IMG/VR virus record: IMGVR_UViG_3300049259_000204
Location: 1 to 48,978 of that record
DNA length: 48,978 bases
Strand: one strand, 5' to 3'
Source of the DNA: a virus
Shown here: positions 5,092 through 45,179 of the stretch, piece by piece
How the letters are laid out: every line of letters begins with the position of its first letter
How positions within the stretch are numbered: the first letter of the stretch is position 1
Notes under the pieces: model-generated
Seen by the model: the letters and a program-made list of their open reading frames with translations, nothing else
Databases searched by the model: none
Told to the model about the DNA's origin: nothing
Program-made: the position numbers and the translations under genes

Positions 5092-5120
5092 AAGCTACCC
5101 GAACGGGTAGATCGGCTCAA
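5092..5120 (-). promoter_or_regulatory. promoter/operator copy 3
   Basis: Minus strand: -35 TTGAGC, 17-bp spacer, -10 TAGCTT. Perfect palindrome CTACCCGTTCGGGTAG at 5095-5110. Drives the single gene at 4760-5047. Confidence 0.8.
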
Positions 5121-5190
5121 GGGGCCAACCGGATGATCACAGGTCAGCCAGGCTGTAGGCCGTCGCTTGAGGGTATTTCTGCTGTCATGA

Positions 5191-5228
5191 CACGGGCCCC
5201 GTCCGGCCGAAGCCAGGCGGGGCCCGTG
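5191..5228 (-). terminator. hairpin terminator
   Basis: Perfect 11-bp stem CACGGGCCCCG / CGGGGCCCGTG (5191-5201 with 5218-5228), 16-base loop, just after the stop at 5239. No U-tract follows, as is common in actinobacterial terminators. It closes the operon that starts at the promoter at 8658-8686. Confidence 0.75.
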
Positions 5229-5238
5229 GTGCTCTCGA

Positions 5239-5544
5239 TTAGGCAGAGACGTCGAACAGGTCGACGATCTTGCCGCCGTACAGCTCACCCTCGACCTGCT
5301 CGGCGTTGGTCCAGCCCGGCACGGTGAGCGTGCCCACGAGCATGTCCACGTCGGGGTCGTCGAGGTAGCCCTCCACGGTCGCCTCGTCGGCCAGGTCGTC
5401 GAGCAGCCGGACCGGCTCGTCCTCGGGGATGGCGTAGTTGAGCCAGCTCAGCTTCTCGGCGAGGTCGGCCAGCGCCGTCTCGTTGCCGTCCACCTGGAGC
5501 CAGAACGTGCCCTCGACGCTGTCGAGGTACTTGCGGAACTGCAC
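5239..5544 (-). CDS. FWLQVDGNE-family hypothetical protein A (101 aa)
   Basis: Starts at the GTG at 5544 behind GGAGATCAC. Paralogue of the gene at 5834-6214: both share the block FWLQVDGNE near the N-terminus and end in a V-P-W strand motif (LTVPGW here, LRVPDW there) followed by an acidic tail. The family is not recognised. The pattern of strands and acidic loops suggests a small alpha/beta domain. Last gene before the terminator at 5191-5228. Confidence 0.8.
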   Translation of the reverse strand: MQFRKYLDSVEGTFWLQVDGNETALADLAEKLSWLNYAIPEDEPVRLLDDLADEATVEGYLDDPDVDMLVGTLTVPGWTNAEQVEGELYGGKIVDLFDVSA

Positions 5545-5552
5545 GTGATCTC

Positions 5553-5837
5553 CTACTCGTCGTCTTCGTCCGTGGCCAGCGTGCGCATCGCCTCGCCGTA
5601 CCACTCCCAGTTGTCCACGCCCGCCTGCTCCAGGGCGTTGAGCTTGTCCTGGTCCTCGATCAGGCGCTTGTACCTATTGCGGCCGACCACCTTGCCCCGG
5701 GACAGGTAATCGGCGATCCGGCGCAGGTCCTGCTGCACCTCGTCGCTGGAGCCGCTACGCGCCGCGTCCTGCTTGTCGAACCAGTCGGCCAGGAAGCGCA
5801 GCTTGCTCGCGTCGTCGTCGTAGACGGCCGTGCTCAC
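5553..5837 (-). CDS. hypothetical helical protein (94 aa)
   Basis: The GTG at 5837 overlaps the upstream stop (GTGA). The protein (MSTAVYDDDASKLRFLADWF...ATDEDDE) is helical and charged with an acidic tail. It sits between the two FWLQVDGNE paralogues. No family recognised. Confidence 0.75.
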   Translation of the reverse strand: MSTAVYDDDASKLRFLADWFDKQDAARSGSSDEVQQDLRRIADYLSRGKVVGRNRYKRLIEDQDKLNALEQAGVDNWEWYGEAMRTLATDEDDE

Positions 5838-6214
5838 GCGGGCGCCGTCTCCTGGAACAGTTCGCAGACGCCGCCCTTGTTCAGGTCCTGCTCGATGCGG
5901 CCGCCGAAGTCGGTGGGCGCGGGCCAGTCCGGCACCCGCAGCACGCCGGTGACCTTGTGGTCGCTGGCCATGTAGCCGCCCTCCTCCTCGTCGGCCTGCT
6001 CGATCAGGACGTCCACGTAGGACTCGTCCTTGGCGTGGTCGATCGAGTCGAGCACGAAGGGAGAGCCGGGCTCCCCGTCGCGGTAGAGCGCCGCGAGCGC
6101 GTCCAGCGCGACGTGCAGGCGCAGCAGCGCGTCCTCGTTGCCGTCGACCTGGAGCCAGAAGCGCCAGGTCTCGCCTTCCCACTCGTTCTCCTCGGTGAGC
6201 TTCACGAACTTCAT
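5834..6214 (-). CDS. FWLQVDGNE-family hypothetical protein B (126 aa)
   Basis: Begins MKFVKLTEENEWEGETW behind GGGAGATCATC. It has the FWLQVDGNE block (12 of 16 positions identical to the paralogue at 5239-5544 over TFWLQVDGNETALADL versus RFWLQVDGNEDALLRL) and the C-terminal LRVPDW strand. It carries an extra acidic insertion (EQADEEEGG). Probably a duplication followed by divergence. Function unknown. Confidence 0.85.
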   Translation of the reverse strand: MKFVKLTEENEWEGETWRFWLQVDGNEDALLRLHVALDALAALYRDGEPGSPFVLDSIDHAKDESYVDVLIEQADEEEGGYMASDHKVTGVLRVPDWPAPTDFGGRIEQDLNKGGVCELFQETAPA

Positions 6215-6225
6215 GATGATCTCCC

Positions 6226-6501
6226 TCAGGGGTTCTTGATCTCGATCCGCATGCGGCGAGCCTTCTCCGGGACCTCCGCCACCCAGACCGAGCCCACAGC
6301 GAGGTCGAAGAAGCTCGCCAGGGCGCGCGTGAGGTGGAAGATGCCGTCGACCGTCTGGCCCGGTGTCAGCTCCACGATGAGCCCGTCACCGTCCTCGTCG
6401 AGCGGCCGCGAGCCGATGAGCGGGGTGAGCCGATTCGGGCAGGTCTCCTTGTTGGAGAGAGTCTCCCACTGCTCGCGCAGGGTCTTGATGTCGTTGGACA
6501 T
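6226..6501 (-). CDS. free-standing paralogue of the FtsK/TraB N-terminal domain (91 aa)
   Basis: A 91-residue protein beginning MSNDIKTLREQWETLSNKET. It aligns along nearly its whole length with residues 176-262 of the DNA translocase at 27,517-29,577: KETCPNRLTPLIGS versus KTTCPPRLAPLVGS (10 of 14 identical) and GQTVDGIFHLTRALASFF versus GHTVDSVSHLRDALASFF. The ATPase part is absent. Leader is CACCGAAGGAGATCACC. Inferred role: partner, decoy or regulator of the translocase. The homology is visible in sequence; the role is not. Confidence 0.9.
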   Translation of the reverse strand: MSNDIKTLREQWETLSNKETCPNRLTPLIGSRPLDEDGDGLIVELTPGQTVDGIFHLTRALASFFDLAVGSVWVAEVPEKARRMRIEIKNP

Positions 6502-6621
6502 GGTGATCTCCTTCGGTGTGGTGGAAGGGCGGCCACCGCAGGCAGAACAGGTGGCTCCGCGCCCAACCAGCCCGACGCGCTATCCTGCGGTTGTTCTGTG
6601 GCTGTCCACGCCGCCCTTGAT

Positions 6622-6930
6622 CTAGATCTTTTCGACGTCGAGCAGCTTCCCGTGCTGATCCGGCGGTCCGTCCTCGGGATCGCGTGGGTGGCCGAAGTTC
6701 ATGGCCTCCCAGACCTCGTCCGGCGCGGGGACGTAGACGACTGGCCAGCCCACCACGTCCACGTCCGTCTCGGTCTCCATCGGCCCCCAGAGGTCGACGA
6801 TGTGCCACTTGGCGTCTTGGCCCTCCTGGTCCAGCAAGATCGCGTGCGCGAAGCCCTCGGGGGACCGCCGGACAGTGCCGTGCGGCAGCCTGTTCGCGTC
6901 GTCCACCGTGATGGTCGAGTTGGTGATCAC
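6622..6930 (-). CDS. hypothetical protein (102 aa)
   Basis: The GTG start at 6930 (MITNSTITVDDANRLPHGTV) overlaps the upstream stop by GTGA. Beta-rich N-terminal half and acidic/proline loop (DPEDGPPDQHG). No family recognised. Followed by a 120-base gap before the translocase-domain paralogue. That gap holds a possible weak promoter (TGGACA ... GATAGC on the minus strand, around 6580-6615) without the operator palindrome. Confidence 0.8.
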   Translation of the reverse strand: MITNSTITVDDANRLPHGTVRRSPEGFAHAILLDQEGQDAKWHIVDLWGPMETETDVDVVGWPVVYVPAPDEVWEAMNFGHPRDPEDGPPDQHGKLLDVEKI

Positions 6931-7157
6931 AAGTCCTCCGGCGGGGTCAGGAACGGCACCATGCCCATCTCGCGCTCGATCGGCGCGTCATCGCGCGGGG
7001 GACGGTCGACGATGATCTCCAGGCCGCCCCACGGGTCGAACACGATCCAGCGCTGCGCGAGCGCAGGGTCAGGGTGCTCGGGGTGCTGATCCGGCCAGAA
7101 CAGTGCAGCCGCGCCGCCCACGTCGTAGAACATACCGGGGATCCACTCACCGCTCAT
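6927..7157 (-). CDS. hypothetical protein (76 aa)
   Basis: Starts at the ATG at 7157 (MSGEWIPGMFYDVGGAAAL), overlapping the upstream stop by ATGA; the longer frame is rejected. It contains a Trp/Pro-rich centre (WPDQHPEHPDP, FDPWGGLEIIVDRPP). Function unknown. Confidence 0.8.
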   Translation of the reverse strand: MSGEWIPGMFYDVGGAAALFWPDQHPEHPDPALAQRWIVFDPWGGLEIIVDRPPRDDAPIEREMGMVPFLTPPEDL

Positions 7158-7585
7158 GCGCACTCCTCCTCGTCGATCGTGATGCCGAACAGCTCCTCCG
7201 CGACGTCCAGGTAGCCGTAGATCGCCACCAGCACGTCCTGCGTGCTGCCGAGGTAGGCCAGCGCGTGCAGACGGTGGTTGCCGTCCTCCAGCATCACCGC
7301 GCCCGACGCCGTGACGTCCACCTCCAGCCGTTCCCCGGGTGGCCAGTCGTGGTGGACCAGGTAGGCAATCCGCTCGGCATGAGCTTGCGCGCTGCACGGA
7401 CCGCGCATCCAGCTCCGCTCGGGCGGCTCGGGGTTCAGCCGCCCCTCGGCCAGCGCCGAGGTGACCTGATCGCGAGTGACCCCGCCCACGCTCCAGACAT
7501 CCACCTCGAAGGGCCTGAGCAGGTCGATGAGCACCGGCGCCGAGACGGTCGCCTGGCAGTGCTGGGGCCCGGCGTCGACCCTCAT
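7154..7585 (-). CDS. ParB/sulfiredoxin-fold protein (143 aa)
   Basis: Start at the ATG at 7585 (MRVDAGPQHCQATV), ATGA overlap with the gene upstream. The motif MLEDGNHRLHAL (residues 98-109) is the D-G-x-H-R signature of ParB N-terminal / sulfiredoxin-like folds, which bind or hydrolyse nucleotides (CTP in ParB). It lacks the ParB HTH domain, so partitioning is unlikely. One gene away lies a second ParB-fold protein (7809-8618) with DGQHR. Possibly both act in DNA modification or a toxin-like nucleotide reaction. Confidence 0.75.
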   Translation of the reverse strand: MRVDAGPQHCQATVSAPVLIDLLRPFEVDVWSVGGVTRDQVTSALAEGRLNPEPPERSWMRGPCSAQAHAERIAYLVHHDWPPGERLEVDVTASGAVMLEDGNHRLHALAYLGSTQDVLVAIYGYLDVAEELFGITIDEEECA

Positions 7586-7809
7586 CCCTGCTCTTCCTTC
7601 GCGGAGTTGATCATGTTCTTGTACGCCTCGTTCACGTCCTGGCTTTCGACGTTCGCGTACGCCAGCGCGAGCGCCATGAGCAAGGCGTCGGACTGGTTCA
7701 CCCGGCGGCGGAGCTTGTGCTGCACGTATAGCTGCCACTGGGTCAACGTGGCTCGCGCGTCGCTCTTGAGCGAGATGCTGGTGTAGCCGTAGCGGTTGTC
7801 GTCGGCCAT
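7582..7809 (-). CDS. small ribbon-helix-helix-like protein (75 aa)
   Basis: ATG at 7809 (a GTG at 7812 is also possible). After a short beta stretch (YGYTSISLKSDARATL) come two helices (LTQWQLYVQHKL and QSDALLMALALAY), the order expected of a ribbon-helix-helix DNA-binding protein. Its position between two ParB-fold genes fits a DNA-binding partner role. Fold assignment tentative. Confidence 0.7.
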   Translation of the reverse strand: MADDNRYGYTSISLKSDARATLTQWQLYVQHKLRRRVNQSDALLMALALAYANVESQDVNEAYKNMINSAKEEQG

Positions 7810-8618
7810 CACGCCAGCTTGAAGTGGTCGTCGGTCAGCTCGGTCAGGCCCTTGAGCGCGAGGACCTTGATCTTCTTCCCCTCGCGCTTAGCGTTCCAGG
7901 CCTTGGCCCCGGCGGCCAGGAACGGCTTCACCGGCTTCTCGCCGCCCTTCTGCGCGGAGCGGATGATCAACGCCCGCAGGGCCAGCTCGGGGTCCCCAGC
8001 GTGTAGCCCCTCGCCGTTGCGCACGCCCTCCCAGAACTCCAGGGCCGTGGCCGCGTCGATCCGGAAGGTGAGGAAGTACAGGCAGCCGAAGGCGGCCGGG
8101 AGGGCGCCGATCTCGTTGCGCAGGCCCATGCCGTAGCGCACGGCCTGGCCCATTGCGTCGCGGTTCTGGATGACGTAGTCGACGATCTCGGCGTCGGTGG
8201 GCTTGTAGACCTCACCCCGGACCTCTTCGACCTCCCACAGCAGCACAAGCCGGGTGACGGCCTGGGCCGACTTCGCCGACGGGATGCCGTGGCCCATGGT
8301 CAGCTCGTCGGAGGCAGACCGGCGCCGGTTCTTGTCCATCTTGAACCGGTCTTCGCGAGCGATGTTCTCGACGATGATGAATTCGAGCGTCACGCCCGCA
8401 TCGATCAGCGCGCTCAGCCGGTGCTGGCCGTCGATCAGGTGGCCCTCGGTGTCGAACTTGATCGTCTCGCCGATGTTGGGGAACTGGCCGTTGCGCATGT
8501 CGCGGGCGAGCTTGCTAACCCAGGTCGGCGAGATCTTCCGGTTCTCGTTGTTCGTCGCCAGCCACTTCTTCGCCAGCTGGGGCGTCACCGGGATCTTGCG
8601 GTGCTTGATATCGCTCAA
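7809..8618 (-). CDS. ParB/DndB-like domain protein (269 aa)
   Basis: Uses a TTG start at 8618 with GGAGA 7 bases upstream, in the leader of the promoter at 8658-8686. Residues 15-90 carry the ParB-like core: NRKISPTWVSKLARDM, then LIDGQHRLSAL (61-71) and VTLEFIIVENI. This arrangement is common in phage proteins annotated as ParB-like or DndB-like. The C-terminal 180 residues are helical and lack a recognised catalytic motif. The rare start codon may keep expression low. Function uncertain. Confidence 0.85.
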   Translation of the reverse strand: MSDIKHRKIPVTPQLAKKWLATNNENRKISPTWVSKLARDMRNGQFPNIGETIKFDTEGHLIDGQHRLSALIDAGVTLEFIIVENIAREDRFKMDKNRRRSASDELTMGHGIPSAKSAQAVTRLVLLWEVEEVRGEVYKPTDAEIVDYVIQNRDAMGQAVRYGMGLRNEIGALPAAFGCLYFLTFRIDAATALEFWEGVRNGEGLHAGDPELALRALIIRSAQKGGEKPVKPFLAAGAKAWNAKREGKKIKVLALKGLTELTDDHFKLA

Positions 8619-8657
8619 GACGGGGTCTCCATTCCCTCCGGTGCGGGGTACCCGATC

Positions 8658-8686
8658 AGACTACCCGATCAGGTAGGTTCTGACCA
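8658..8686 (-). promoter_or_regulatory. promoter/operator copy 4
   Basis: Minus strand: -35 TGGTCA, 17-bp spacer, -10 TAGTCT. Palindrome CTACCTGATCGGGTAG at 8661-8676. An extra direct half-copy (TACCCGATCAG, 8649-8659) sits immediately downstream. Drives the ParB-fold operon down to the terminator at 5191-5228. Confidence 0.75.
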
Positions 8687-16465: not shown

Positions 16466-16503
16466 GACGACCTCCGATGCGGTCTCTGTAACTGACAAGA
16501 CCC

Positions 16504-16532
16504 ACACTACCCGTTCAGGTAGTGTGGGTCAA
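16504..16532 (-). promoter_or_regulatory. promoter/operator copy 9
   Basis: Minus strand: -35 TTGACC, 17-bp spacer, -10 TAGTGT. Palindrome CTACCTGAACGGGTAG at 16507-16522. Leader has CTTGTCAG and then CCGCATCGGAGG. Confidence 0.85.
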
Positions 16533-16773
16533 GTGCCGTGCTCAGGTCAGTGCCGTGGTGACGCTCTCGTCGTCGATCATGGATCCGATGTGCAGGTGCG
16601 GTGAGCAGGCCGCCAGATACAGGAAAGTTGGGGGCGGGCGCACACGCCCAGCGCCGCCCGCCGACCTGGACTGTCCAGGTAATCGGCAAGGTACGGCGAC
16701 AAGGGCCCTGAAGGCCTCTCATTTCGCCGTAGAGAGTGCGGAGAGGCTCGGCGCCCCACGAGTCCCTCCGCGT
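16533..16773. other. non-coding segment with palindromes
   Basis: A 241-base stretch between promoter copy 9 and the terminator at 16774-16792 without a supported gene: the ORFs crossing it have no ribosome-binding site. It contains a perfect 15-bp palindrome CCTGGACTGTCCAGG (16665-16679) and a GC stem GGCGGGC / GCCCGCC nearby. It could encode a small RNA or hold a protein-binding site. Confidence 0.5.
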
Positions 16774-21453: not shown

Positions 21454-21489
21454 TGCGACCTCCGGTGTGGTCCTTGACTGACAAGACCC

Positions 21490-21518
21490 ACACTACCCGT
21501 TTAGGTAGTGTGGGTCAA
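21490..21518 (-). promoter_or_regulatory. promoter/operator copy 12
   Basis: Minus strand: -35 TTGACC, 17-bp spacer, -10 TAGTGT. Palindrome CTACCTAAACGGGTAG at 21493-21508. Leader stem CTTG TCAGT CAAG (21473-21485). Confidence 0.85.
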
Positions 21519-21528
21519 GCTCCGCCGC

Positions 21529-23147: not shown

Positions 23148-23189
23148 GTTGTCCTCCGGTGCGGACGGTGTTCTTTGCTGACAAGAAGG

Positions 23190-23218
23190 ACACTACCCGT
23201 TTAGGTAGTGTCCGTCAA
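23190..23218 (-). promoter_or_regulatory. promoter/operator copy 14
   Basis: Minus strand: -35 TTGACG, 17-bp spacer, -10 TAGTGT. Palindrome CTACCTAAACGGGTAG at 23193-23208. Leader stem-loop TTCTTGTCAGCAAAGAA (23171-23187). Confidence 0.85.
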
Positions 23219-23233
23219 GCCCCTTCGGCGACA

Positions 23234-26453: not shown

Positions 26454-26723
26454 ATGACTTACGACCCTGAGCGTGACGAGACCCCGAGCTACGAGGGCGA
26501 GGTGGTCGAGGAGAAGGCCCGCATGCGCCCGCGTACGAAGGTGGCACTCGGCGGGCTCGTGGGCCTCGGCGTCTCGATCGTCGCCGAGCAGTACCTGATC
26601 GCCATCGGGCTGATCTGCGCCTACGTCGCGTGGATGTTCGTCCGCACGTGGCTGGCGAAGCGGCGCCGCGACCGCGCATGGCTCGACGGCGGCGGAACGA
26701 TCGAGCGAGGAGGGATCCTGTGA
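26454..26723 (+). CDS. small membrane protein of transfer-like operon (89 aa)
   Basis: Begins MTYDPERDETPSYEGEVVEE. Acidic N-terminus, basic stretch, then one or two hydrophobic helices (about 30-62: VALGGLVGLGVSIVAEQYLI then AIGLICAYVAWMFV) and a basic tail. No ribosome-binding site is seen, so translation may be leaderless. The stop overlaps the next GTG (GTGA). Small membrane proteins of this kind sit next to spd/tra genes in actinomycete conjugative elements; that is context, not homology. Confidence 0.75.
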   Translation: MTYDPERDETPSYEGEVVEEKARMRPRTKVALGGLVGLGVSIVAEQYLIAIGLICAYVAWMFVRTWLAKRRRDRAWLDGGGTIERGGIL

Positions 26724-27520
26724 AGCTGCCCGATGGCGGCAAGCTCGTGTCCTGGACGGGCTTCATCTTCGGCACGGCGGTGTCGGTCGCCGCGAATGTG
26801 CTGGCCGCCAGGATCCCGCCCGATCACGCCGCGTCGGACTGGACCCCTCGCACGGACACCCAGTTGGGCTCGGCGGTCTGGCCGCTGGCGCTGCTGCTGT
26901 CGATCGAGGTGCTCGCACGGGTCGCCTGGCCCAAGGGCGTCTGGTGGAACGTCGCACGCTTCGGTGGCCTGAGCATCGTGGCCAGCGGTGCGTTCGTCAT
27001 CTCCTACCAGCACATCAACCACGTGCTGGCCTCGTGGGGCTACGAATGGCTGAGCCAGGGCGTCGGCCCGCTGGTGATCGACGGCTTGATGGTCATCTGC
27101 GGCGTGGCGATGCTGGCCAAGCCGGGCGCGCTGCGCAAGCTGCTCGCGGGCAAGGACGCGCCGGAGCGGAGGGACGTCATTCCCGAGGTCCCGAAGCCGA
27201 TGCTGCGGCCGCTGAACGAGCCGAACATCGGCGGCCCGAGTAAGTCCTCGTCCGTCGAGGACTCGACGGCCCCGGCTGAGCTGGAGCACGGCGTCCCGGC
27301 GCAGCGCAACGGACACCGGGTGTCGGCAGCGCTGAAGACCGGCCCGAAGCCGCGCAAGACCTCGGGCCAGAGCGACGAGGAGATCGCCACCCTGCTGCGC
27401 GGGGAGATCGAGCGGGACGAGAACCCGGACCTCACCAAGCGCGGCGTGATGACGCGATTCGGCGTCGGCGCACCGCGCTGGACCAAGATCACCGAGCTAC
27501 TGAAGAAGGAGGAGTCGTGA
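26720..27520 (+). CDS. DUF2637/SpdB-like membrane protein (266 aa)
   Basis: GTG start overlapping the upstream stop. Four predicted membrane helices (about 10-28, 48-66, 82-98, 112-134) with the family-like motifs ISYQHINHVL (94-103) and GPLVIDGLM (116-124) typical of DUF2637, a family found in actinomycete conjugative elements with plasmid-spread functions. The hydrophilic C-terminus (about 140-266) is Pro/Lys-rich and ends in an HTH-like segment (LTKRGVMTRFGVGAPRWTKI). Translationally coupled by GTGA to the translocase gene. It probably works with it at the membrane. Confidence 0.85.
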   Translation: MKLPDGGKLVSWTGFIFGTAVSVAANVLAARIPPDHAASDWTPRTDTQLGSAVWPLALLLSIEVLARVAWPKGVWWNVARFGGLSIVASGAFVISYQHINHVLASWGYEWLSQGVGPLVIDGLMVICGVAMLAKPGALRKLLAGKDAPERRDVIPEVPKPMLRPLNEPNIGGPSKSSSVEDSTAPAELEHGVPAQRNGHRVSAALKTGPKPRKTSGQSDEEIATLLRGEIERDENPDLTKRGVMTRFGVGAPRWTKITELLKKEES

Positions 27521-29577
27521 GCGGTGAGTCGAAGGGGGTCGTGAAGGAGATCCTCGGCACGGCGGGCGGCGTGCTCGTCGCCGAGGGGATCGGGCGGGGG
27601 TGGAAGCGCGGCCGCAAGCTGATGTTCCGGTGGCGGCGCGCGCTCACCCCGCTGTGGTTCGGGTTCCTGATCTTCCTGACCTGCGTCATCTGGCGCTGGC
27701 AGATCCCGCAGTGGTGGCCGATCGTGCTCACCATCCCGGTCGGCGGCGGCCTGCTGGCGGTCTTCGGGCCGAAGCTGTCGGATCGCTGGTCCCGGGTGGC
27801 GATGGCCTTCGTGCCCAGTGGGCTCGACAAGGGCAAGGACGGCGTGCTGGACCGGCTCGTGGAGCGGATCTACTTCGGCACGCTCACCACCTACATCGGC
27901 GCCTACATGGTCCTACGCATCGTGGACGGCTCCAGTTCGTTCTCCGGCTACATGTGGCAGATCGGAGTGGCTGCCTTCGGCGGCGCCTGGTGGTACCACC
28001 GCCGGGTGCGGGTGGCCGGACGGGCCGACCGCTTCGCGAAGAAGTGGCCGAAGCTCTCCGACAAGACGACCTGCCCGCCCCGGCTCGCGCCGCTGGTCGG
28101 CTCGAAGGTGGTCGACGCGCGGGCGTACGGCAAGACCTCGGTGCTGAAGATCCGGCTCGGCGAAGGCCACACTGTGGACTCCGTCTCGCACCTGCGTGAC
28201 GCGCTGGCGAGCTTCTTCGGGATGCGCCCGTCCTCGGTGTTCATCGCGCCGGACCAGGACCAGGCTCGCAACGTGGTCATGACCTTCCTGCCGAAGGACC
28301 CCTGGGACGGCAAGATCGCGCACCCGATCTTCACCGATAGCGAGATCAAGCCGGGCGAGATCAGCCTGAAGTCGATGGGCAAGCGCTTCGCCATGGGCCT
28401 GCACGCCCACGGCGAACGGATCATGTACCAGCTTCAGCACACGCTGGTGGTCGGCGCGTCCGACTCGGGCAAGTCCGGCTGGCTGCACTCGCTGATGGCG
28501 TGGCTGGTCAGCTTCTTCGACGTCGTGATCGTCGGCATCGACATGGCCGCCGGGGCGACGCTGGGCGTCTGGCGCAAGACCCTCGCGCTGCCGCTGGCCG
28601 AGGACGTGGACTCGGCGGTCGTCATCCTGGAGCGCGTCTTCGGCGTGATCCGGGACCGGGAGTCCCGGCTGGGCCTGGCCTCGGAGGACGACGACGACGC
28701 CGAGGACAGCGTCGAGCCCGACCGCAAGACCCCGTGGCTGATCCTGGTGATCGACGAGTTCCCGGACCTGCTGGCCGAGGCCAAGGCGACCACGAAGTAC
28801 AACGGAGACGGCAAGGCCGACGGCAACATGCTGAACTACGTGATCGCCCTGCTGTCGCGGATCGCGAAGAAGGCGCGCAAGTGTGGCGTGCGGATCGTCA
28901 TCGCGAGCCAGAACGGGACCAAGGCGGACCTGGGCTCGAAGGAGATGCAGGCCCAGCTGCGCGCGATCGTGGGCCTGGGCCTGGACCCGCTCCAGTCCAA
29001 GAACCTCTGGCAGAACGACATGCACCGGGGCTGGAACTCGACGGCACTACGGAACGGCCAGTTCCTCCTGAAGGACGACGAGCACGGGACTCCGGACCCG
29101 GGCAAGGGGTACTGGGTCGAGAACAAGGACCGCCGGGATCTCGTCAAGAAGGTGGCGCCGAAGGGATACCGCGAGGTCTTCCTGGAGCCCACCGCGTGGG
29201 CGATCCTCATGGGCGAGACCAAGCCGGAGACCATCGAGGGCGAGGTCATCGCGGAGGAGACCTTCGGTCCCGAGTACGCGGTCCTGGAGTACCTCCGGGT
29301 CGAGGCCCAGGACGGCGCGAAGGTGGAGACCATCTCCGACGTCCTGACCAAGGCCAAGGAGGAGACCGGCGGGTCCGGTCCCGGGACCAGCCGGGCGACG
29401 ATCTACCGGCACCTGGAGAAGCTGGAGAAGGGCGAGCTGGTCGTCCGCAACGGCGGCGGCGAGGGCTTCTGGAAGGCGGCCCCCGTCACGGCCACCACGC
29501 CAGTGCCCGAGCCCCGCACGGAGACGGACGGGCCGGTGGTCATCGCCAGCATCCAGGGCGAGGCAGTGTCGAAGTAG
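27517..29577 (+). CDS. FtsK/SpoIIIE/TraB-type DNA translocase (686 aa)
   Basis: GTG start in a GTGA overlap. Order of parts: basic N-terminus; up to four membrane helices (about 45-60, 65-85, 118-135, 145-160); a soluble domain (176-262) that is the paralogue of the small protein at 6226-6501; RecA-type motor with Walker A GASDSGKS (313-320) and Walker B ILVIDEF (409-415); C-terminal winged helix (about 587-655, TSRATIYRHLEKLEKGELVV). This is the build of TraB of Streptomyces conjugative plasmids, a membrane hexamer moving double-stranded DNA after recognising short repeats through its winged helix. In a phage it may pump DNA between mycelial compartments or cells. Confidence 0.9.
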   Translation: MSGESKGVVKEILGTAGGVLVAEGIGRGWKRGRKLMFRWRRALTPLWFGFLIFLTCVIWRWQIPQWWPIVLTIPVGGGLLAVFGPKLSDRWSRVAMAFVPSGLDKGKDGVLDRLVERIYFGTLTTYIGAYMVLRIVDGSSSFSGYMWQIGVAAFGGAWWYHRRVRVAGRADRFAKKWPKLSDKTTCPPRLAPLVGSKVVDARAYGKTSVLKIRLGEGHTVDSVSHLRDALASFFGMRPSSVFIAPDQDQARNVVMTFLPKDPWDGKIAHPIFTDSEIKPGEISLKSMGKRFAMGLHAHGERIMYQLQHTLVVGASDSGKSGWLHSLMAWLVSFFDVVIVGIDMAAGATLGVWRKTLALPLAEDVDSAVVILERVFGVIRDRESRLGLASEDDDDAEDSVEPDRKTPWLILVIDEFPDLLAEAKATTKYNGDGKADGNMLNYVIALLSRIAKKARKCGVRIVIASQNGTKADLGSKEMQAQLRAIVGLGLDPLQSKNLWQNDMHRGWNSTALRNGQFLLKDDEHGTPDPGKGYWVENKDRRDLVKKVAPKGYREVFLEPTAWAILMGETKPETIEGEVIAEETFGPEYAVLEYLRVEAQDGAKVETISDVLTKAKEETGGSGPGTSRATIYRHLEKLEKGELVVRNGGGEGFWKAAPVTATTPVPEPRTETDGPVVIASIQGEAVSK

Positions 29578-42088: not shown

Positions 42089-42625
42089 ATGCCACGACGG
42101 ATCTTCACCGCAGAAGAGCGCTATCTTGCGAAGGTAGACAAGTCAGCTGGACCAGATAAGTGCTGGCCATGGACCGGTCACCGGCTCAAGAAGGGGTACG
42201 GGCTGTTCTGGGATGGAACGCGCAATGCCAGCGGGAACAACCACCTTGTAGTCGCAAGTAGGTGGGGTTACGAACATTTCGTCGCCCCGATCCCGGCAGG
42301 GCTCTTCGTACTGCATCGATGCGACAGCCCTCCTTGCCAGAACCCAAAGTGCTGGTTCCTTGGCACTAACCAGGACAACGTCAACGATCGAGTGATCAAA
42401 GGGCGCGGTGCCAAGGGCGAGCGCAGTGCCTTCAAGCTTCACCCCGAGCTATATCGAGGCGAGAACCACTACAAGGCGACTCTGACCGAAGACGATGTCC
42501 GCGAGATCCGTAGGCGCTACGCGGCTGGCGGGATCACCCAGCAGGCGCTAGGTGATGAATTCGGGCTCCACAACGTCACCATTTCCAAGATCATCACCAA
42601 GCAGCGCTGGGCTCACGTCGACTAA
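42089..42625 (+). CDS. HNH (homing-type) endonuclease (178 aa)
   Basis: Begins MPRRIFTAEERYLAKVDKSA. Core of the HNH fold: LHRCDSPPC (75-83), NPKCWFLGTNQDNVNDR (85-101), with cysteines for a structural zinc. The C-terminal HTH (132-172, ITQQALGDEFGLHNVTISKI) is of the type found in phage intron or free-standing homing enzymes. It has its own promoter, is opposite to its neighbours, seems less GC-rich than they are, and its stop overlaps the terminase stop tail-to-tail (42622-42625). Probably a mobile insertion next to terL. Confidence 0.9.
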   Translation: MPRRIFTAEERYLAKVDKSAGPDKCWPWTGHRLKKGYGLFWDGTRNASGNNHLVVASRWGYEHFVAPIPAGLFVLHRCDSPPCQNPKCWFLGTNQDNVNDRVIKGRGAKGERSAFKLHPELYRGENHYKATLTEDDVREIRRRYAAGGITQQALGDEFGLHNVTISKIITKQRWAHVD

Positions 42626-44595
42626 CGTCGCCGCCGGTGAGGGTTCCGTGCAGGGTTGAGCCCTCCTGCGCGGACCATCGTCCTCTTGCTCGGGGACAGT
42701 CGATTGAGCACATCCTGATCGGGTGACTCCATGTTGCGGTACGGGTTGAAGCCGCCCTGCTGGCCGGTCACGATGTTCATCTCGCGCAGCATGCCCGCCT
42801 GCCAGTTCCGGACCTGCTCGCCGAGGATGGTCCAGACCACTTCCATCATGCACTTGGCCACGTCGTCATGGACCACGGGACCGGTGTCCTGGTGCACGAC
42901 GCGGTTGGTGGTCGCGGTGGTCTTCAGCTGGAGGAACTTCAGCTCCAGTTCGGCGGTCTCGTACCAGGGCGCCTCGACCCAGCCCTGGTTGATCGCGACC
43001 TTGAAGCACTCGGCCACCTGCCAGTTGTGCTTGGCGTCGGACTTCTGCTCGAAGATCGTCATGCGCTTCGGCGCGCGATTCTGCCGGACCTTGCGGTTGA
43101 GCCGCTGGATCGGCATGGCCGAGTTGTGCTGGTCGAAGGTGAACTCGTCGATCTTGAAGCCCCAGATGATCTCCCACAGCTCGACGTCCACAACCTGGAT
43201 GTAGTCGATCGTGTGGTCGGGGAACTCGGCCGGATCCCAATGATGGAGCAGGTCGAAGCGGCAGCGGAGAAAGCCGTCCTCGTGCTCTTCGGCGTGGCCG
43301 ACGGCGAGACCGAAGTTGTCGTTGACCTTCGAGGGGTCCGCGTGTCCCTTGTAGAACGTCGTGAGGTTCTTGGCCGTGCGGGTCATTACGAGGTCGTTCT
43401 GGAAGATCGCCTCGACCTTCTTCGGGTCCAGGTAGGCATCCACCACCGACTGCCAATGCGAGCGGCGCTCGACGGAGAAGGTGTCGGGGTTGGCCCGCTC
43501 CAGCTTCTCCATCCGCTCGTCGTACTCCTGGATGGCGCCCTTGAGCCGCTGGAACTTCGGGTGCGGCCGCTCCAGGTACTCGTTCAGATCGCCGGTGAAG
43601 TCCTCCGGGAAGACGGGCAGCATGTGCGCGTCTTTCCAGTCGTAGTAGATCTCCCAGCTGGCCAGCTGGAGCATCATCATCTCGGGGTACTCGGGGTTGC
43701 CGTCCTCGTCGAAAGCCAGCGCCATCTCCCAGTTCGCGTAGAACTGGCCGATCATCTGCCAGGGACTCGACGGGTCGATGATGAAGCCGTCCATCTTGAA
43801 TTGATCAAGAGATGGAGTCGCTGAGCCATACACCTCTTCGGCGGAACGACCGGCACCCGAGGGCACCACGTGCGCCATCTCGTCGAAGCCGAGCCCGAAG
43901 GAGGCCGGGCCACGCGCGGACATCAGCGTGGCCTCCTTCGGCTGGATCGTGAAGGTGGCCATGTCCCGCGCGGTGGTGACCCCGCGCTGATTCTGCCGCC
44001 GCAACCGGACGAAGTCGTGCGGTGCGTAGATGGTCAGGTTCTCCCCGAGCGACCGGGAGATGTACTTGGCGAAGCACGGGGCGCCCTGGATGACGTTGAC
44101 GACGTCCTTCCAGAGGTTCTCCCGGGCCTGCTGCTTCTTCCCGGCGTAGATGAACATCGCCAGCTGCTTGTCGCGGTCGATCCCGTAGTACTCCTGGGGA
44201 TCACCCTTGGCCATGAAGCGCCAGAGCACGTAGGCCATGGCCAGCGCCGAGACGTAACCCTTCCCGGCGCGGCGGCCGAGGACCAGCAGGACCTCGCGGA
44301 AGTAGAAGTAGCCCTTGAGCCGGAGCGCGGCCATGCGCTGGCGGATCTTCGGCACGATGCCGTTGTTCCCGTGCCGCTCGAAGGAGGCCTCCCACTCGTC
44401 GATGACCATGTGGTCGTACTCGGTGAGGAGGTCGTTGCGCAAGAAGATGACCTTGAGCAGGGTTGCCTGACGCGGGTAGAGCTGCCCCCGGCCACACCAG
44501 CGCGGGTTGATCGCAAAGGTGATGGGGTCAGGAACCGGCAGCCCCGTGAACGCTGCGAAGTCCACGGGGCTGAAGGCCGGAGGCGAGAGGGTCAT
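42622..44595 (-). CDS. terL: terminase large subunit (657 aa)
   Basis: Start at the ATG at 44595 (MTLSPPAFSPVDFAAFTGLP) in an ATGA overlap; the longer frame is rejected. ATPase part: GRRAGKGY (107-114) is the Walker A variant of phage terminases and LGFDEMAH (235-242) the Walker B plus catalytic Glu. The C-terminal half, with acidic segments (GHAEEHEDG, QVVDVELWEI), is expected to be the RNase H-like nuclease that cuts concatemers. The motor packages DNA into the procapsid together with the small subunit and portal. The start of the late region on this strand. Confidence 0.92.
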   Translation of the reverse strand: MTLSPPAFSPVDFAAFTGLPVPDPITFAINPRWCGRGQLYPRQATLLKVIFLRNDLLTEYDHMVIDEWEASFERHGNNGIVPKIRQRMAALRLKGYFYFREVLLVLGRRAGKGYVSALAMAYVLWRFMAKGDPQEYYGIDRDKQLAMFIYAGKKQQARENLWKDVVNVIQGAPCFAKYISRSLGENLTIYAPHDFVRLRRQNQRGVTTARDMATFTIQPKEATLMSARGPASFGLGFDEMAHVVPSGAGRSAEEVYGSATPSLDQFKMDGFIIDPSSPWQMIGQFYANWEMALAFDEDGNPEYPEMMMLQLASWEIYYDWKDAHMLPVFPEDFTGDLNEYLERPHPKFQRLKGAIQEYDERMEKLERANPDTFSVERRSHWQSVVDAYLDPKKVEAIFQNDLVMTRTAKNLTTFYKGHADPSKVNDNFGLAVGHAEEHEDGFLRCRFDLLHHWDPAEFPDHTIDYIQVVDVELWEIIWGFKIDEFTFDQHNSAMPIQRLNRKVRQNRAPKRMTIFEQKSDAKHNWQVAECFKVAINQGWVEAPWYETAELELKFLQLKTTATTNRVVHQDTGPVVHDDVAKCMMEVVWTILGEQVRNWQAGMLREMNIVTGQQGGFNPYRNMESPDQDVLNRLSPSKRTMVRAGGLNPARNPHRRRR

Positions 44596-45179
44596 CCCTG
44601 GACGGTCTCGGAACCCCGGAAGCGCCGCGCGTCGTCCGGGAACCGCTCGCTGTAGGCACTGGTCGACATCCGCTCGCCCGAGGGCCACAGCTCGACCATG
44701 TCGCCGTCGTCGGTGGCCCAGCTGACGAACGCGGGCTCGTTGCCGGTCAGCTTCGCCTTCTGGAGCGCGTAGACCCGGGCCTTGTCCGGCGAGTCCTCCT
44801 CGGCGGCGACCTCGGGCAGATCGCGGTTCGTGAAGCACACGAACGCGCCGTACACAGCCATGCTCTGCTCCTTTGTGGATTTGCGGAGGATCAGGTTGTA
44901 CTCGACCCGGTCGCCCTCCGCCTTGCGTCCCCACCGGCTCGTAAGGACGTCGAACTGGTCACCGTTGACCTCCAGCGCCGAACCGACCTCGGGAAGGTCG
45001 AAGGGGAACACCCCGAAGCCGCTGATGCCGCGATAGTCGTCCTGGCTCGCGGCATGACGCCACGCGAGGAAGGCAGCACGCACGTCCAGGACGCTGGACT
45101 CCCGGGGCACAGGAAGACCGGCCACCACGCACCCGGCGAGCAGCGCGGCCAGCTCCTCGGTGGTCTTCCGCTCGCTCAC
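44592..45179 (-). CDS. hypothetical protein (195 aa)
   Basis: GTG start at 45179 (MSERKTTEELAALLAGCVVA), GTGA overlap. The N-terminal half is helical; the rest is alpha/beta with DLPEVGSALEVNGDQFDVL, RVEYNLILRKSTKEQSMAVY and DDGDMVELWPSGERMSTSAY. Next to terL, but no terminase or portal motif. Unknown function. Confidence 0.8.
   Translation of the reverse strand: MSERKTTEELAALLAGCVVAGLPVPRESSVLDVRAAFLAWRHAASQDDYRGISGFGVFPFDLPEVGSALEVNGDQFDVLTSRWGRKAEGDRVEYNLILRKSTKEQSMAVYGAFVCFTNRDLPEVAAEEDSPDKARVYALQKAKLTGNEPAFVSWATDDGDMVELWPSGERMSTSAYSERFPDDARRFRGSETVQG

Follow-up and report, generated by a model that had tools for sequence, protein, structure and literature searches.

The window, a virus record of IMG/VR comprising 48,978 bases with a G+C content of 66.8%, carries a gene for a 91-aa protein that, by alignment, is a true stand-alone paralogue of one domain of the phage's own FtsK/TraB-like translocase, with the motor absent. 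The unit shared by the two proteins is the alpha-subdomain of the FtsK motor together with its linker helix, ending just before the beta motor. The domain is a known one in a new arrangement, of which one contig provides the single known example. We tentatively propose that the free alpha-subdomain modulates the motor from which its fold is known.

Results

The window is a soil-phage contig whose large-terminase gene lies at 42622-44934. Among the relatives found, the 155-kb contig G001 (IMGVR_UViG_3300041409_000610) is the nearest; it is collinear with the window, with gaps, at a DNA identity of roughly 70-96%. G006, a 150-kb contig, is related at a greater distance than G001. G008 (IMGVR_UViG_3300044816_000098, 154 kb) is a relative by its terminase (53% identity). 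No FtsK-family motor was detected in G008, so the translocase may not be universal across the wider group. A ParB-like protein (phrog_5931, E 3e-63) is encoded at 7809-8618 on the minus strand, and G001 has a second ParB-like copy, 28% identical, near 136.8-137.6 kb.

The translocase (Table 1) is ordered as an N-terminal membrane part, the alpha-subdomain, a RecA-like beta motor and a C-terminal winged-helix-like part. Its Walker A sequence is GASDSGKSG, its motor matches PF01580 (FtsK/SpoIIIE) at E 4e-8, and the translocase of G001 is 91% identical to it. At 26630-29577 on the plus strand, a DUF2637-like protein (a weak match, below cut-off) is followed by the translocase with its C-terminal helix-turn-helix-like part; this gene pair resembles transfer modules of actinobacterial mobile elements, and the group may include phage-plasmids.

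Table 1. Features of the window considered here, by position in the window
Feature	Position	Strand	Basis
91-aa stand-alone FtsK-type alpha-subdomain (linker helix and alpha fold)	6226..6501	-	sequence, alignment, Foldseek
GGAGATCACCATG, ribosome-binding site and start codon of the 91-aa gene; cassette-edge repeat	6499..6511	-	sequence
GGAGATCATCATG, ribosome-binding site and start codon of the next gene; other cassette-edge repeat	6212..6224	-	sequence
Next operon gene, 126 aa, unknown function	5834..6214	-	
Conserved structured-RNA-like leader directly 5' of the 91-aa gene, 93 nt	6525..6617	-	conservation, folding
FtsK/TraB-like translocase, 686 aa	27517..29577	+	Pfam, PHROGs, profile and fold comparison
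Alpha-subdomain (residues 176-262) in the translocase, homologous to the 91-aa protein	28042..28302	+	

The 91-aa open reading frame opens its operon, starts with an ATG behind GGAGATCACC with a strong ribosome-binding site, and ends at its own stop codon at 6226. Its G+C content at the three codon positions (0.62/0.50/0.89) gives a composition similar to that of the neighbouring genes. A spurious reading frame was rejected. The two genes downstream, at 5239-5604 and 5834-6214 on the minus strand, encode proteins that are distantly paralogous, at an identity of about 30%.

When aligned with residues 175-253 of the translocase, the 91-aa protein is identical at 34 of 79 positions (pairwise E 2e-17). 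The local alignment score of 155 compares with a mean of 31.6 and a maximum of 61 in 2000 shuffles, and chance similarity is rejected. In an all-against-all comparison of the open reading frames of the window, these two proteins are the strongest paralogous pair (3e-14). The 91-aa protein has no Walker motifs and no membrane segment, and the Walker A and B motor (PF01580) is absent from it. The initial annotation had reported an alignment in two blocks with 10/14 and about 12/19 identities, with the translocase 20 kb away and in the opposite orientation; this is correct, the distance being 21.5 kb. It had described the protein as a stand-alone copy of the translocase's N-terminal domain. The paralogy stands; the domain name does not, since the shared unit is the FtsK alpha-subdomain, which is part of the motor.

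Identification of the shared unit as FtsK alpha follows from the agreement of three approaches, namely hhalign through the motor, a shuffle-calibrated comparison with an FtsK-alpha profile, and Foldseek; the single results are modest, and all give the same answer in the same register. By hhalign, a profile of seven relatives matched E. coli FtsK with a probability of 95.7 and E 8e-9. The alignment passes from beta1 of alpha straight on into the motor, in the register PG-x3-I-x2-L-x3-LA, and the E. coli stretch of 37 residues under the shared region is the alpha-subdomain. With the alpha part alone, hhalign gave E 5e-4 but a probability of only 33%, against 95.7% with the motor included. An alpha profile of ten rows scored 26.2 against a 16-sequence FtsK alpha profile, with the register as expected, and none of 200 column-shuffled controls exceeded 19.3.

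The predicted structure of the 91-aa protein (pLDDT 82) is not independent of homology, as its alignment contains translocases. Its top PDB match in Foldseek was the FtsK alpha-beta chain 6t8g_A, with a probability of 0.99 and an E of only 0.024, over 92 columns and the whole length with a TM (query) of 0.64, and many more FtsK chains were among the top 50. The model of the translocase, which matched FtsK chains at 2e-7, is poor overall (pLDDT 48) and was used only for the order of secondary-structure elements in alpha and for a weak fold search. That order is the same in both predictions and, in keeping with the initial annotation, the predicted folds of the 91-aa protein and the translocase domain agree. 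The paralogous domain lies directly before the RecA-like beta motor in the translocase, and the stand-alone protein has no motor behind it. Hmmscan at E up to 10 returned no family, PF17854 included, for the 91-aa protein or the translocase alpha domain; Pfam and PHROGs returned nothing for the 91-aa protein, and a BFVD fold search gave no significant match.

We aligned the 91-aa protein with 12 translocase alpha-subdomains, that of the window and eleven from related viral contigs. Conserved residues of the fold type are kept in the 91-aa protein (W12, L25, G30, G40, L45, T50, L61, S63 and P91). The conserved basic positions, defined as basic in at least 11 of the 12 translocases, are eight in number over the stretch that it covers. 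Seven of these are lost (R or K replaced by D4, T7, E10, Q11, T14, E44 and A68), and only R32 is still basic. The net charge of the 91-aa protein is -3.4, and that of every translocase lies between +5.5 and +8.8, counted without the RRxR linker. In Pseudomonas FtsK, the DNA-contacting alpha residues are K377 and R380 (PMC7321959). Their counterparts, in our own numbering, are non-basic in both the translocase and the 91-aa protein; hence those exact DNA contacts are not common to the phage proteins.

The viral contigs were searched with a profile that recognises the 91-aa protein at 1e-34. Each of 11 other translocase-bearing viral contigs has exactly one alpha copy, always within the translocase frame, and nothing matched in the other records covered. 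As many of the viral contigs are fragments, absence from them is weak; the contigs of G001 and G006 are long. An alpha profile of their own likewise gave one copy in each of six Streptomyces records of about 130 kb, namely phage Gilgamesh and five plasmids. In 60 Acidobacteriota genomes, each of the 55 PF17854 matches above cut-off falls within a frame no shorter than 424 codons. A tblastn search of phages and plasmids with the 91-aa protein returned only chance-level Listeria matches (E 0.1 or worse), peptide-pattern scans of IMG/VR found no relative of it, and a three-sequence profile matched nothing in IMG/VR except the translocase of the sister contig. A scan of GTDB with the translocase profile gave a fragmentary match in an Acidobacteria MAG (E 3e-5, residues 330-383), which we did not take as a relative.

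A search for the operon elsewhere with two neighbouring genes found G001 only. No second genome with both the 91-aa protein and the translocase was found among the viral contigs and the phage and plasmid records searched; the recurrence of the pair to which the initial annotation had looked was thus not seen, with one alpha copy per genome in the records tested. The opposite pattern, the 91-aa protein in many genomes that lack a translocase, was also searched for and not seen. We found no described stand-alone FtsK alpha-subdomain in the open-access literature.

In G001, an 82% identical homologue of the 126-aa gene directly follows the leader and opens the operon, and the site of the 91-aa gene is empty. 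In the window, the extra gene sits precisely between GGAGATCACCATG and GGAGATCATCATG, the two 13-nt repeats. Such a footprint would be expected if a single-gene cassette had been gained or lost, in either direction. Because G001 has the 91% identical translocase with an empty site, the motor has been kept without the 91-aa protein. The 91-aa protein is most closely related to the translocases found in its own phage group. In a tree it groups with those of the window, G001 and G006, with support of only 73/91, and AU tests reject nothing; its branch is long (1.8 changes per column). Judged by its sequence, the 91-aa protein is long diverged from the translocase family of its own phage, and, at about 43% identity, a recent duplication of the resident translocase is ruled out.

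The phage has a palindrome, CTACCC-N4-GGGTAG, with 41 matches in the window at up to 3 mismatches (18 expected), about 20 of which have one mismatch or none; examples are at 1217-1264, 16491-16538, 21477-21524 and 23177-23224. Several overlap sequences that by eye resemble promoters (TTGACC-N17-TAGTGT), before many minus-strand genes, and related blocks occur in G001 and G006. The set looks like a repressor- or activator-controlled regulon. The initial annotation had assigned an operator to one of the two operons. For the 91-aa gene we rejected such control at its own start: from 5110 to 8661 there is no palindrome except a 2-mismatch site within a gene at 6071, and the nearest one upstream is at 8661.

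The leader in front of the 91-aa gene is conserved in two related phages, G001 and G006, in front of different genes; its positions there are L021:8568-8667 on the plus strand and L025:19211-19303 on the minus strand. It folds into a multi-branched hairpin with the closing stem GGGCGGC/GCCGCCC. There are three both-side (compensatory) changes among the three sequences, a small sample, and the shuffle control (32/500) is suggestive only. The leader has no Rfam match and was not found in 15 other records searched.

Discussion

What might a free alpha-subdomain do? Cell division, sporulation, conjugation and phage biology all involve DNA movement by FtsK-family pumps, and we know of few natural protein inhibitors of these. 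The alpha-subdomains of FtsK form a nearly rigid ring that is the DNA exit aperture, and are thought to keep the hexamer closed (PMC7321959). Since the alpha domain builds the ring in known FtsK structures, capping or poisoning of the hexamer, as the initial annotation suggested, is physically plausible. The reading that we favour, though at less than even odds, is that the 91-aa protein modulates the alpha-ring in trans, probably negatively. The target of the free alpha-subdomain would be the ring of the membrane-anchored hexamer, where it would occupy or cap alpha-alpha contacts and so keep the ring from closing, or would block the DNA exit. In this way it would restrain, during one phase of infection, the motor of its own phage, or else that of a related co-infecting phage. 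Retention of the fold with loss of the conserved basic residues would fit an inhibitory part better than a spare one.

Several observations count against a modulator. G001 retains its translocase with no 91-aa protein, no second genome has the pair, and neither position nor apparent control links the two operons. In the hexamer, a free alpha-subdomain would face competition from six that are covalently tethered. Furthermore, divergence to about 43% identity and the reversal of charge could equally mean that contact with the motor has been lost.

The alpha fold may instead have been copied long ago and have since taken on a role that has nothing to do with the motor, perhaps that of a small early protein directed at the host, similar to the further short proteins of unknown function in this operon. 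We regard this as a serious possibility; it is nearly as likely as the modulator, and the data separate the two poorly. The protein stands in an operon of small, variable, unknown proteins, its branch is long, it is dispensable in G001, and it has lost the conserved charged residues of the motor's alpha while keeping the fold core. Nonetheless, it still shares 43% identity with the resident translocase, and the blocks TCPxRLxPLxxS and HLxxALASFF are conserved, which pure fold constraint would not obviously preserve.

To return to the modulator, one form of it that we consider conceivable, if rather doubtful, is an anti-translocase: a charge-altered decoy alpha-subdomain taken from the phage's own pump, which would serve as a timer of that motor or as immunity against competitors. 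It is improbable that the protein acts purely outward, poisoning the translocase of related incoming phages or phage-plasmids and so giving immunity while the motor of its own phage either does not respond to it or is made at a different time. Conflict genes are typically patchy, and this gene is present in the window and missing from the sister, in a single-gene cassette with edge repeats and in a separate operon on the opposite strand. However, patchiness is common to many genes of the region, self-inhibition would be expected of a protein closest to the translocases of its own phage and the sister, and there is no known link from the translocase to DNA entry. An immunity role is possible, with patchiness as its sole positive sign.

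The protein might also help the motor, as an additional alpha subunit that nucleates or stabilises the ring or that brings the translocase to a partner. This would suit the retained fold core and the proposal that the alpha-ring holds the FtsK hexamer closed (PMC7321959), but is very unlikely given the loss of the conserved basic residues and the absence of the protein from the sister phage, whose motor is nearly identical. That the gene is debris, a functionless partial duplicate not yet lost, is highly improbable: it is on one contig only and missing in the sister phage, yet an identity of about 43% means long persistence with an intact frame, and the strong ribosome-binding site, the coding composition and the selectively retained fold core count against debris.

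If the modulator reading is right, it could reveal a simple route to regulators, the copying of one subdomain out of a ring motor. The free alpha-subdomain would also be a ready reagent for testing whether the alpha-ring holds the hexamer closed, as has been proposed (PMC7321959).

The closest known relative of the shared unit is the FtsK alpha-subdomain (PF17854, FtsK_alpha; 2IUS, 2IUT, 2IUU, 6T8B, 6T8G, 6T8O), which has a similar element order. As in FtsK, the alpha unit of the homologous translocase lies directly before the RecA-like motor, and the 91-aa protein matches FtsK by Foldseek over its whole length. It differs in that the Pfam model does not recognise it, in standing alone rather than fused, and in that K377 and R380 of FtsK have no basic counterpart in the phage proteins. 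Gp10 of Streptomyces phage Gilgamesh and the FtsK proteins of the ~130-kb plasmids are like the translocase of the window in having a membrane part, an alpha-subdomain, a motor and a C-terminal helix-turn-helix-like part. In all the records tested, the genomes with such translocases carry a single alpha copy, whereas the 91-aa protein is the alpha unit only. Their domains are read as FtsK alpha from alignment with the translocase of the window; hhalign of the Streptomyces plasmid alpha domains against FtsK alpha gave no signal. TcpA, the FtsK-type coupling protein of the conjugative plasmid pCW3, is a relative of the translocase by Foldseek (6o1x, E 3e-6). It differs from the 91-aa protein in having a full motor, and we know of no stand-alone subdomain paralogue of it. 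The fertility-inhibition proteins PifC and Osa target coupling proteins and, to our knowledge, neither duplicates a domain of the pump that it inhibits. We claim no membership among them for the 91-aa protein; if it is a negative regulator, it would be like them in being a small protein that blocks a DNA pump of the FtsK/HerA family.
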